Of a stretch of DNA of 64,000 nucleotides, positions 37,087 through 49,331 are shown piece by piece. The notes beneath the pieces are model-generated. The model saw only the letters and a list, made by a program, of their open reading frames with translations, was not told where the DNA came from and made no database searches. Source of the DNA: Thermococcus argininiproducens (lineage in GTDB: Archaea > Methanobacteriota_B > Thermococci > Thermococcales > Thermococcaceae); NCBI RefSeq assembly GCF_023746595.1, contig NZ_CP080572.1:868001-932000 (forward strand), read 5' to 3'. The position numbers were made by a program, and so were the translations under genes. Within the stretch, counting starts at the first letter, position 1. Each line of letters begins with the position of its first letter.

Positions 37087-37178
37087 TCACGTTGTAAACT
37101 TTCTCTTCTTAAATTTCTCATTTGGGAATAAAAACTTACTTAACAATTCATGCAAAGTTTACATTGGAGATGAATGAA

Positions 37179-37490
37179 ATGGTTAAAGCTATTTGGAATG
37201 GAGAAATTATTGCTGAGGCTAAAAGAGACGAAGTTATTCTTTTGGAAGGCAATGTCTATTTTCCACCAGACACTGTGAGAAAGGAATTCCTCCGAAAAAG
37301 CTCCACTCATACAACATGTTCATGGAAAGGAGAAGCAAGCTACTATCATGTTGTTGTGGGAGAGGAGGTAAATGAAGATGCTGCATGGTATTATCCAAAT
37401 CCTAAAGAAGCAGCAAACACAATCCAGGGTTATATTGCCTTTTGGAAGGGTGTTAAGATAGTGTGGGATGAAAAAGATGAGAAAGTTTGA
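37179..37490 (+). CDS. DUF427 family protein
   Basis: About 103 residues with the DUF427 signature: WNGEIIAEAKRDEVILLEGNVYFP, then CSWKGEASYYHVVV and DAAWYYPNPKEAA. The family forms small beta-rich proteins of uncertain function found widely in bacteria and some archaea. ATG 37179 is preferred (GGAGATGA before it); ATG 37170 and an upstream start at 37122 are open. It overlaps the flavoprotein gene, so the two are probably translated together. Confidence 0.8.
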   Translation: MVKAIWNGEIIAEAKRDEVILLEGNVYFPPDTVRKEFLRKSSTHTTCSWKGEASYYHVVVGEEVNEDAAWYYPNPKEAANTIQGYIAFWKGVKIVWDEKDEKV

Positions 37491-38802
37491 TGTAGTTGTT
37501 ATTGGAACTGGTGTAGCTGGTTCTTCTGCTGTTTATAAGTTTGCAAAGGCTGGCTTGAGTGTTGCTATTGTTGACGAGAGACCCTTTGGTGGAACATGTG
37601 CTCTTAGGGGTTGTGACCCAAAGAAAATTCTCATTGGGGGAGCCGAACTTGTAGATTGGATTAAGAGAATGAACGACAAAGGTATTGAAGGAAAAGTACA
37701 CATAAACTGGAAAAAGCTCATGGCCTTTAAGAGAGAATGGACTAAAGATTTTCCAGAAAAGATGGAAAATGCTCTCAAAAAGGCAGGGATTGAAACAATT
37801 CATGGGAGAGCTCAGTTTATAGATAAAGATAGGATACAAGTTAATGGGGATGTTATAATATCTGACAAATTTCTGATAGCAACTGGTGCAAAGCCGAGAG
37901 AACTCAACATTCCGGGGGAGGAGTATGTTATAACCAGTGATGAATTTCTTGAACTTGATGAGTTGCCGGAGAGGATAGTTTTCATCGGTGGGGGGTACAT
38001 ATCATTTGAATTTGCACATTTAGCAGCACGCGCTGGAACTTCTGTGATAATACTTCATAGAAGTGAGAGGCCCCTGAAGAACTTTGAGCCTTATATAGTG
38101 GATATCCTTCTCAAAGCTACTGAAGATGCTGGTATAAATGTTATAACTAACGCTCCTGTGAAAGAAGTAAAGAAAAAAGAGGAAGTATTTGTTGTGAAAA
38201 CCCCCCAAGGTGATTTTGAAGCTGATCTTGTGGTCCATGGGGCTGGTAGGGTTCCCAATATAAATAATCTTGGACTAGATGAAGCTGGAGTTGAGTATGA
38301 TAAAAGAGGAATAAAAGTGAATGAGTATATGCAAACAACGAATGAAACTATTTATGCTGCTGGAGATTGTGCCAAAGGTGGTTTACCATTGACACCAGTT
38401 GCAGCGGTAGAGGGAAGTATAGCTGCAAGCAATATTATCGAAGGAAACCATGTGAAAATTAACTATACTGCAATACCTACGGTAGTCTTTACAATCCCTC
38501 CAATGGCCTCGGTTGGCTTAAAGGAAGAGGAGGCTAGAAAAAAAGGCCTCAAATTCGTCATAAAAAAAGGTGATACCTCAAAATGGTACAACTCCATTAG
38601 AATAAATCAAAAGTATTCATGTTATGAGATTCTAATCGGAGAAGGAAATAGAATTCTTGGGGCACATTTGCTTGGTCAAAATGCAGAGGAAATTATGAAT
38701 ATCTTTGCTCTTGCAATTAAACTGGGCCTAACAGCTAAAGATCTAAAACATGCTTACTATACATATCCAAGTCATTCATATGACATCTTGTATATGCTCT
38801 AA
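37477..38802 (+). CDS. FAD-dependent pyridine nucleotide-disulfide oxidoreductase
   Basis: About 441 residues of the dihydrolipoamide dehydrogenase/mercuric and glutathione reductase family. It has FAD-binding VVVIGTGVAGSSAVYK, the redox pair GGTCALRGCDPKK (CxxxxC), a second nucleotide site IVFIGGGYISFEFAHLAARAG, and IYAAGDCAKGG. The usual C-terminal HxHPTxxE active-site motif is replaced by YTYPSHSYD, so the acid-base His is missing and the substrate may be unusual. It is not evidently the E3 of a 2-oxoacid dehydrogenase; no such genes are near. ATG 37468 is an alternative start. It lies in an islet between rpl14e and cbf5. Confidence 0.9.
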   Translation: MRKFDVVVIGTGVAGSSAVYKFAKAGLSVAIVDERPFGGTCALRGCDPKKILIGGAELVDWIKRMNDKGIEGKVHINWKKLMAFKREWTKDFPEKMENALKKAGIETIHGRAQFIDKDRIQVNGDVIISDKFLIATGAKPRELNIPGEEYVITSDEFLELDELPERIVFIGGGYISFEFAHLAARAGTSVIILHRSERPLKNFEPYIVDILLKATEDAGINVITNAPVKEVKKKEEVFVVKTPQGDFEADLVVHGAGRVPNINNLGLDEAGVEYDKRGIKVNEYMQTTNETIYAAGDCAKGGLPLTPVAAVEGSIAASNIIEGNHVKINYTAIPTVVFTIPPMASVGLKEEEARKKGLKFVIKKGDTSKWYNSIRINQKYSCYEILIGEGNRILGAHLLGQNAEEIMNIFALAIKLGLTAKDLKHAYYTYPSHSYDILYML

Positions 38803-38888
38803 AAGGAAAATCGGTTTAAGAAGGCTTTCTTAGTTTTTCTCATTCCTAGAAGAAGTGCTTCAGAGTGCTTCTTGAAAGTCTCGTTCTT

Positions 38889-38966
38889 TAGGGTGGGGAT
38901 GGAGTGATTGAGGGCTATGACTCCCGAGAGGAATCCCCCCTTCCGGACAAGGAAGGGGTCAGGAAG
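38889..38966 (+). ncRNA. solitary IS605-end / omega-RNA-like structured element
   Basis: Two adjacent hairpins: GGAGT/ACTCC (38901-38905 with 38920-38924), whose loop is framed by TGA on both sides, then CCCCTTCC/GGAAGGGG (38937-38944 with 38951-38958) with loop GGACAA. The arrangement 'TGA-framed stem, GAA, C-run hairpin' matches the 3' end of the decayed tnpB element at 49218-49275. Upstream TCGTTCTTTAGGGTGGGGAT also recalls IS200/IS605 right ends. No transposase gene adjoins it. It could be a relic insertion end or a domesticated guide-type RNA. GGGGAT/ATCCCC (38895-38900/38933-38938) is an alternative outer stem. Confidence 0.45.
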
Positions 38967-39015
38967 AAAGTCTCCCATAAAGTGGGGTAAGAATTATGAT
39001 GGGGGATATTCTAAA

Positions 39016-47899: not shown

Positions 47900-49283
47900 T
47901 CTTTGTGAAGACTCCTTCCGAGAGGGAGGGGGTGCAAGCACTCTAAAAGCAAACACCGAAAGACTTAAATACTTTTTACTCTGCTGCATAGTAATGAGTG
48001 ATGTCAATGTACTTAACGCAAAAGAATCACTTACGAGTGGACAAGAAGACTTACAAACTCCTTCGCACTTTAACTCACTTATCCAAAGACTTGTACAACC
48101 TCACCCTCTACGTGACTAGGCAACACTACGAGTTGAACGGTTCATTCCTACCATTCGTTAAAGCCTATCACTTGGTCAAAAACAGCATCCCCTACAAATT
48201 ATTGCCAAGCCAAGTTGCCCAGCAAACCATGAAAATCGTGGAGAGAAACTACCGCTCATTCTTCAAACTTTTAAAGGAAAGGCAAAAAGGAACTACAATA
48301 GGCCAATTCGCCCGCCAAGGTTTTTGCCCAAGGACGGGCACTTTGTGTTAATTTTCCCCTACCAATCCTTCAAGGTTAAAGAGGATAGAGTGATCCTCAC
48401 TCTCGGACGAAACTTTGCGAAAAAGTTTGGCGTAATGTACTTGGAAATTCCCCTCCCAAAGAATGTCAAGGGGCATAGAATAAAGGAAATCCGCATTTTG
48501 CCAAAGTATAACGCCTTGTGGTTTGAGGTTGAGTACGTTTATGAAGTCCAACCAGAAAAGAGGGATTTAAACTGTTCAAAGTACTTGGCCATTGATTTGG
48601 ATGTCGATAATTTTGCAACTTGTGTAGACACCACCGGGACGGCCTTCATCGTTGAAGGCCGGTAGTTGAAGAGTTTTAACCAGTGGTGGAATAAGAAAAA
48701 AGCCAAGTTGCAAAGCCAATATGACAAACAAGGAGTAAAATTCGGCAGAAGGATGGCTCGGCTTTTGAGGAAGAGAAAGAACGTGATGAATAATTTTATG
48801 AATCAAGCCGTGAATTACATCATCAAGTACTGCTTGGAGAATAAAATCGGGAATATACTTATTGGAGAGTTGGAAGAGGCGAAGCAAAGGGCCTCCTTGG
48901 GGAAAGTGAATAATCAGAATTTTCAGTTCATTCCTTACGGCCTCTTCAAGCGAAAATTAAAGGCAAAGTGCGAGCGTTACGGGATTAATTACATCGAAGT
49001 TGATGAGGCTTACATTAGCAAGACGGACGCTTTGGCTTTAGAGCCTTTGGAAAAGAAGGAGAAGTATTGGGGGAAGAGGGTGAAGAGAGGCCTCTTTCAG
49101 TCTTCAACTGGAGTTTTAATTAATGCTGATGTGAATGATGCTTTGAACATTTTGCGGAAAGTAGCCGGCGATTCCCTCGTTGGGGGGATAGCTGGTAGTG
49201 GCCGTGTGAACCGGCCGGTGAGAGTGAGGGTTGTCCCGGTGAACTCTCACGAAGCCCCACCCGCAAGGGCGGGGCAGTTCACT
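47900..49283 (+). mobile_element. decayed IS200/IS605-family element carrying only tnpB
   Basis: The element contains a broken tnpB, no tnpA, and hairpins near both ends: CTCCTTCC/GGGAGGGG (47912-47919 with 47924-47931, loop GAGA) on the left, and GCCCC-A-CCC/GGG-C-GGGGC (49254-49275) on the right, followed by AGTTCAC. Boundaries are estimated from these hairpins, not from target duplication, which this family does not make. It sits between the DUF998 gene and a cysteine-synthase-like gene. Confidence 0.7.
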
Positions 49284-49331
49284 GCCGCAAGAGCAATGTT
49301 TATAAACACAATACGGAATCTCGAACGGTGA
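48001..49331 (+). pseudogene. tnpB: tnpB (IS605 OrfB) with frameshift and in-frame amber codon
   Basis: Three fragments of one protein. One base appears lost near 48290 (GGAACTAC where the family reads G-N-Y-N-R, GGAAACTAC), moving the frame; the second frame reads NYNRPIRPPRFLPKDGHF. It then meets TAG at 48663, where homologues have Gln (CAG), and resumes in frame to 49331. All three RuvC acidic residues remain (AIDLDVDN, IGELEEA, NADVNDAL). The usual C-terminal zinc-finger cysteines are absent, as in some thermococcal relatives. The last codons probably extend beyond the element end near 49283. TnpB is an RNA-guided nuclease; this copy cannot be made full length without recoding. Confidence 0.88.
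49218..49282 (+). ncRNA. 3' end of the element: omega-RNA-like double hairpin
   Basis: GTGAGAGT (49218-49225) pairs perfectly with ACTCTCAC (49243-49250) around a 17-base loop that ends in GGTGA. GAA follows, then the GC-rich hairpin at 49254-49275 with a GCAA tetraloop. In TnpB systems the guide RNA overlaps the 3' end of tnpB and ends at the element boundary, so this is the expected scaffold; transcription is not shown. Confidence 0.5.

Follow-up and report, generated by a model that had tools for sequence, protein, structure and literature searches.

Elements of the IS200/IS605 type insert at a fixed target site without duplicating it, and IS605-type MITE or PATE elements are short, non-autonomous sequences bounded by IS200/IS605 ends. 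In archaea, omega RNAs associated with IS200/IS605 elements have been described for Halobacterium, in a paper in which HgcC is not mentioned (PMC12558985). Regarding HgcC, five such RNAs are expressed in T. kodakarensis, three with start sites inside transposase genes and two with start sites elsewhere (PMC4247193), and their function was called unresolved in 2017 (PMC5732400). No TnpB-type RNA-only or MITE element was found for Thermococcales in the open literature searched, and an earlier description elsewhere is possible.

The stretch analyzed here (64,000 nucleotides of Thermococcus argininiproducens, hereafter the window) carries upstream of cbf5 a 94-bp member of a family that has much in common with the tnpB elements of IS200/IS605 (IS1341-type), namely both ends, the RNA found at the tnpB 3' end and a mode of insertion that places the element 3' of TTAC and duplicates no target. 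Unlike these elements, intact members of the family are RNA-only, with neither tnpA nor tnpB, and they contain a promoter-like sequence of their own and an additional 5' RNA domain of about 150 nt; the window copy, for its part, is only 94 bp long. Intact copies also differ from IS605-type MITEs and PATEs, as they carry a conserved structured RNA and a promoter-like sequence and not two ends alone. The features of the window copy are as follows.

38865..38868, forward strand: degenerate target site, GTGC (TTAC in the sister genome G079, CTAC in the sister genome G084), from the three-locus sister alignment; TTAC stands in front of other copies and of their empty sites.
38869..38911, forward strand: GAAAGTCTCGTTCTTTAGGGTGGGGATG..., the part of the left end that precedes the deletion junction; it fits the left-end pattern exactly, and RNA-only and tnpB elements carry the same left end.
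38911..38912, no strand: approximate internal deletion junction, from alignment to the G084 copy (330 bp) and to the own-genome copy L038 (410 bp).
38912..38962, forward strand: degenerate right-end remnant, GGGCTATGACTCCCGAGAGGAATCCCC...GGGGTCAG, matching the right ends of L038, L039, L040 and L048 and ending in TCAG like the family.
38901..38924, forward strand: first hairpin, GGAGT/ACTCC, chimeric, its arms coming from the two sides of the deletion.
38937..38958, forward strand: second hairpin, CCCCTTCC/GGAAGGGG, in the right-end hairpin region but in a shifted register, by comparison with the family right end CCTCGCCCTTCAGGGCGGGGAGGAGGTCAG.

A first-pass annotation of the window had pointed to a solitary omega-RNA-like fold at this place. 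Both hairpins are indeed where it located them (GGAGT at 38901-38905 with ACTCC at 38920-38924; CCCCTTCC at 38937-38944 with GGAAGGGG at 38951-38958), tnpB is absent from the site as it said, and the location upstream of cbf5 holds, while the proposed interval of 38815-38995 proved too wide, the element being 38869-38962. The fold energy of 38885-38995 is indistinguishable from that of shuffled sequences (z = -0.13, single-strand folding), as is that of the entire intergenic region (z = -0.16). Perfect 8-bp hairpins with loops of 3-8 nt arose in 27 of 2000 shuffles of the intergenic region and occur 10 times in the 64-kb window; such a stem is uncommon, not extraordinary. Hairpins arising by chance, or an intergenic structure of another kind (a terminator, for instance), would give fold energies no better than shuffles, but the homology to element ends lies about 14 SD above shuffles and a sister genome holds a longer orthologous copy, leaving this explanation with hardly any likelihood. 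Indeed, the left-end motif is present in the window copy with 0 mismatches and has 36 matches genome-wide (up to 3 mismatches) versus 0 for the reversed control, and the 94 bp align to the full-length element L038 with a score of 101.9 (shuffles, 21.4 +/- 5.6) and to the G084 copy with a score of 92.9 (shuffles, 20.0 +/- 5.4). With the fold at shuffle level and the sequence homology far beyond chance, the signal is thus in the sequence and not in the fold. Moreover, the two halves of the intergenic region match own-genome sites that are about 350-400 bp apart, so they represent the two ends of a longer element. Among the options initially listed, a relic insertion end and a non-autonomous element are therefore both borne out by the homology to element ends and the longer G084 orthologue.

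Compared with intact relatives, about 240 bp (versus the G084 copy) or about 315 bp (versus L038) are missing at the junction, including the promoter, the 5' domain and the RNA core. The GGAGT arm of the first hairpin belongs to the left-end side of this deletion and the ACTCC arm to its right-end side; the hairpin was hence brought together by the deletion, and what had been taken for an omega-RNA feature is a chimera. The local stem of intact copies, as annotated with the Rfam HgcC model, is CTCC-CGAGA-GGAG. Subterminal hairpins are visible at both ends of intact copies; in the window copy the register of the right-end hairpin is shifted, so that it pairs positions displaced toward the TCAG end. 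While the left end fits without mismatch the motif shared with tnpB-bearing elements, the right end is degenerate, and most of the 12 RNA helices of intact copies are gone. With promoter and RNA core lost by internal deletion, the window copy can make no such RNA, and an Rfam search of the window returned two tRNAs only, with no HgcC match for this copy. Judging from these alignments, 38869-38962 is most probably (probability about 0.92) a dead, internally deleted copy of a non-autonomous Thermococcaceae element of the IS200/IS605 type of about 0.4 kb. Internal deletion is recurrent in this genome, since L045 and L046 are also left-end/right-end fusions, of about 75 bp, and several single-hairpin sites of about 34 bp exist, some of which may be plain right ends.

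The sister genomes show other states of the site. G084 has a 330-bp element copy at the same place before cbf5, without tnpB and matched at 38.3 bits by R1, the covariance model that was derived for the RNA core from RNA-only copies alone. In G079, at most a scar of about 14 bp is found, and this genome may have lost the element by deletion rather than never having had it; a precise empty site is not concluded because TTACTTTTTGATAGTCTC can be a left-end scar left by deletion between AGTCTC repeats. The target has itself decayed at this locus, reading GTGC in the window where G079 has TTAC. Could the 94 bp instead be what remains of a tnpB-bearing element after loss of the whole tnpB gene? Elements with the same ends do carry tnpB (group L054-L061), and at least one short derivative, L045, has tnpB-type 3' sequence, but the orthologous G084 copy has an RNA core and no tnpB, and the window motif GAGGGYTATGACTCCCGAGAGGA is that of the RNA-only L038, L040 and L048 and not of the tnpB right ends shown, which makes such an origin improbable. 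Descent from an RNA-only element is thus preferred. Kinship with the tnpB element at 48-49.3 kb of the window, on which the initial comparison had relied, is not upheld. That element belongs to another group, with the right end ...GGGGCAGTTCAC and not ...GGAGGAGGTCAG, and it is broken: the gene (47998-49331) is a pseudogene split into three pieces of 117, 113 and 221 aa that overlap or adjoin, and the R1 model gave no match to it.

The place of the element before an H/ACA enzyme gene had been considered intriguing. Within the window, a DUF427 protein gene and a pyridine-nucleotide oxidoreductase gene (37122-38802) lie between rpl14e and cbf5; in G074 and G085, rpl14e directly precedes cbf5. 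An RNA domesticated beside cbf5, or a cis-regulatory element of that gene, would fit the location of the element, some 95 bp before the cbf5 start and on the same strand, and a further copy just before cbf5 is found in G077. The latter is nevertheless an independent insertion event as judged from its position, a full-length copy after TTAC inside the neighboring oxidoreductase gene, and among the nine genomes of the genus in which the cbf5 upstream region was readable in detail, no element precedes cbf5 in G074, G085, G075, G076 and G080. Furthermore, the element lies upstream of a promoter-like sequence, TTTATAACC, which persists in genomes without the element, and it is 82% identical between the window's own genome (G000) and G084 while its flanks are 88-95% identical; such divergence, faster than in the flanks, means that the sequence is not being conserved. 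The check proposed at the outset, conservation amid diverged neighboring sequence, thus gave the opposite pattern. A role in the service of cbf5 is therefore very improbable: the nine-genome upstream comparison and the divergence lead us to reject domestication, the idea of a "kept" RNA is not supported, given the deleted promoter and RNA core, the faster divergence and the absence from other species, and a link with cbf5 finds no support, the element being missing before this gene in other species. In G077 (L274, G077:C1:551900-553800), the RNA-only element sits inside a FAD oxidoreductase gene, about half of which is gone downstream.

The interest of the locus hence lies in the family and not in its dead window copy. 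Full-length copies of 376-410 bp exist in the own genome and across Thermococcaceae, a significant match to the full-length query being obtained in 77 of 94 Thermococcaceae genomes, partial matches counted. Two own-genome copies are 99% identical and have thus been recently mobile. The start of the copies read is GAAAGCCTCG...GGGGATG, which in most cases follows TTAC by a few bases, and their end is ...GGAGGAGGTCAG (TCAG). For three of them, empty sites were identified in relatives, with TTAC joined directly to the downstream flank and no target duplication: L185 (G079, G084, G077 and G080, the last with GC for AC), L182 (G077, G080, G075, G081 and G074, a 7-bp difference being allowed) and L188 (first ~17 bp of the flank, in G079, G084 and G082, the last reading TTCAC for TTTAC). 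This junction without duplication is the insertion pattern of IS200/IS605. Beyond these ~17 bp, the flanks of L188 (G000:C1:130560-131568) match different places in relatives, which suggests a rearrangement after insertion. The RNA-only element at L182/L043 (G000:C1, about 1517.1-1517.8 kb) is near the H/ACA RNA HgcF, and a different insert of about 37 bp is found at this site in G079 and G084.

Similar copies next to intact tnpB genes had been named as a test of the first idea; elsewhere, intact tnpB genes are indeed bounded by these ends. The proteins of the tnpB group L054-L061 have about 430-440 aa, L057 having both TnpB Pfam domains, and the members read share the left end and the TCAG right end of the RNA-only elements. 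An intact RNA-only copy is 86-93% identical to the tnpB elements L055-L061 at the left end and 88-92% at the right end. In the own genome, 20 matches to the TnpB zinc-ribbon family were obtained, 19 of them above the cut-off, together with a single Y1 transposase gene. The element that holds this gene ends differently, with ...GTAGTTCAC, so that an action of the transposase on TCAG ends is assumed.

The RNA of the intact copies was aligned from 30 copies below 93% identity, over about 310 nt, and its structure, which applies to intact copies only, comprises 62 pairs in 12 helices. Paired cells amount to 92.0%, versus 37-53% in slid-partner controls, and two-sided changes were counted in 86 cells, versus 27.1 +/- 5.3 after shuffling and 15-26 after sliding. 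Because the helices were chosen with knowledge of these sequences, the slid control is biased in their favor and the two-sided changes are the stronger measure; 21 pairs show such changes, versus 14.6 +/- 2.3 in shuffles. Covariation, which had been proposed as a test, is thus present in the intact family copies. By sequence inspection, a promoter-like TTTTTAAAC box stands some 25 bp before the presumed start. The omega-RNA resemblance also proved well placed for the family, which carries an RNA homologous to that of tnpB 3' ends. Indeed, R1 matches the 3' ends of all eight L054-L061 tnpB genes with 39-50 bits, over its full length and overlapping the C-terminal part of the gene, which is the position of an omega RNA. 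For the RNA-only copies themselves, this result speaks of homology, not of position. RNA and TnpB counts per genome are correlated (Spearman 0.81), a value that we do not count as evidence because tnpB-linked copies are included in the RNA count and relatedness is uncorrected.

Two Rfam families match the same RNA. HgcC (RF00062) and the sense overlapping transcript sot0042 (RF02656) both match RNA-only copies and tnpB 3' ends with significant E-values, at best with 47.2 bits (cut-off 50) and 39.8 bits (cut-off 88), respectively; the HgcC gathering cut-off is reached by no related copy. The likeness to HgcC resides in the same 3' segment on both kinds of element, with the differences that the Rfam model is limited to ~130 nt of the 3' part and that scores remain below its cut-off. 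Like sot0042 and TnpB omega RNA, the RNA extends at the tnpB 3' end to the right end, where the matches are weak, significant and at the expected position; unlike them, it also occurs without tnpB, and it scores well below the Rfam cut-off. In genome G024, an R1 match of 117.7 bits and an HgcC match coincide, apparently inside an interrupted reading frame. The coincidence of HgcC, sot0042 and R1 matches at tnpB 3' ends, considered together with the T. kodakarensis transcripts and the Halobacterium omega RNAs, indicates that HgcC is very probably the omega RNA of TnpB in Thermococcales and relatives, some of it being borne by RNA-only elements. The decayed insertion in the window would thereby have led from an unremarkable fold to a tie between HgcC and TnpB omega RNA.

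How intact elements might work can be outlined from their composition: a tnpB-type left end, an archaeal-type promoter-like sequence, a structured RNA of ~310 nt, the 3' half of which is homologous to the omega RNA of tnpB 3' ends and to HgcC/sot0042, and a tnpB-type right end. A Y1 transposase acting in trans would excise the element and insert it after TTAC. The RNA of the intact copies of this genome, if transcribed, would continue past the right end into the adjoining DNA, yielding an omega RNA with the downstream flank as guide and TTAC as target motif. TnpB supplied in trans might load this RNA and could cut element-free sites, favoring element retention. We see about even odds that intact RNA-only elements are TnpB satellites of this kind, promoter-driven cassettes providing omega RNAs in trans whose spread or retention is favored by cutting of empty sites, with HgcC4 and HgcC5 of T. 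kodakarensis, which come without a transposase gene, being such RNAs and the window copy a dead relic. Many Thermococcaceae genomes contain a nuclease-less, promoter-bearing version of this RNA between transposon ends, making the action in trans of TnpB guide RNAs for satellite elements directly testable.

Finally, at one common place in three genomes (L198, L199 and L201), an RNA-only element is found in which the stem segment of the right end has the opposite orientation to that of L038; between G076 and G077, this element is 97.6% identical and its flanks 94.3 and 91.4%.
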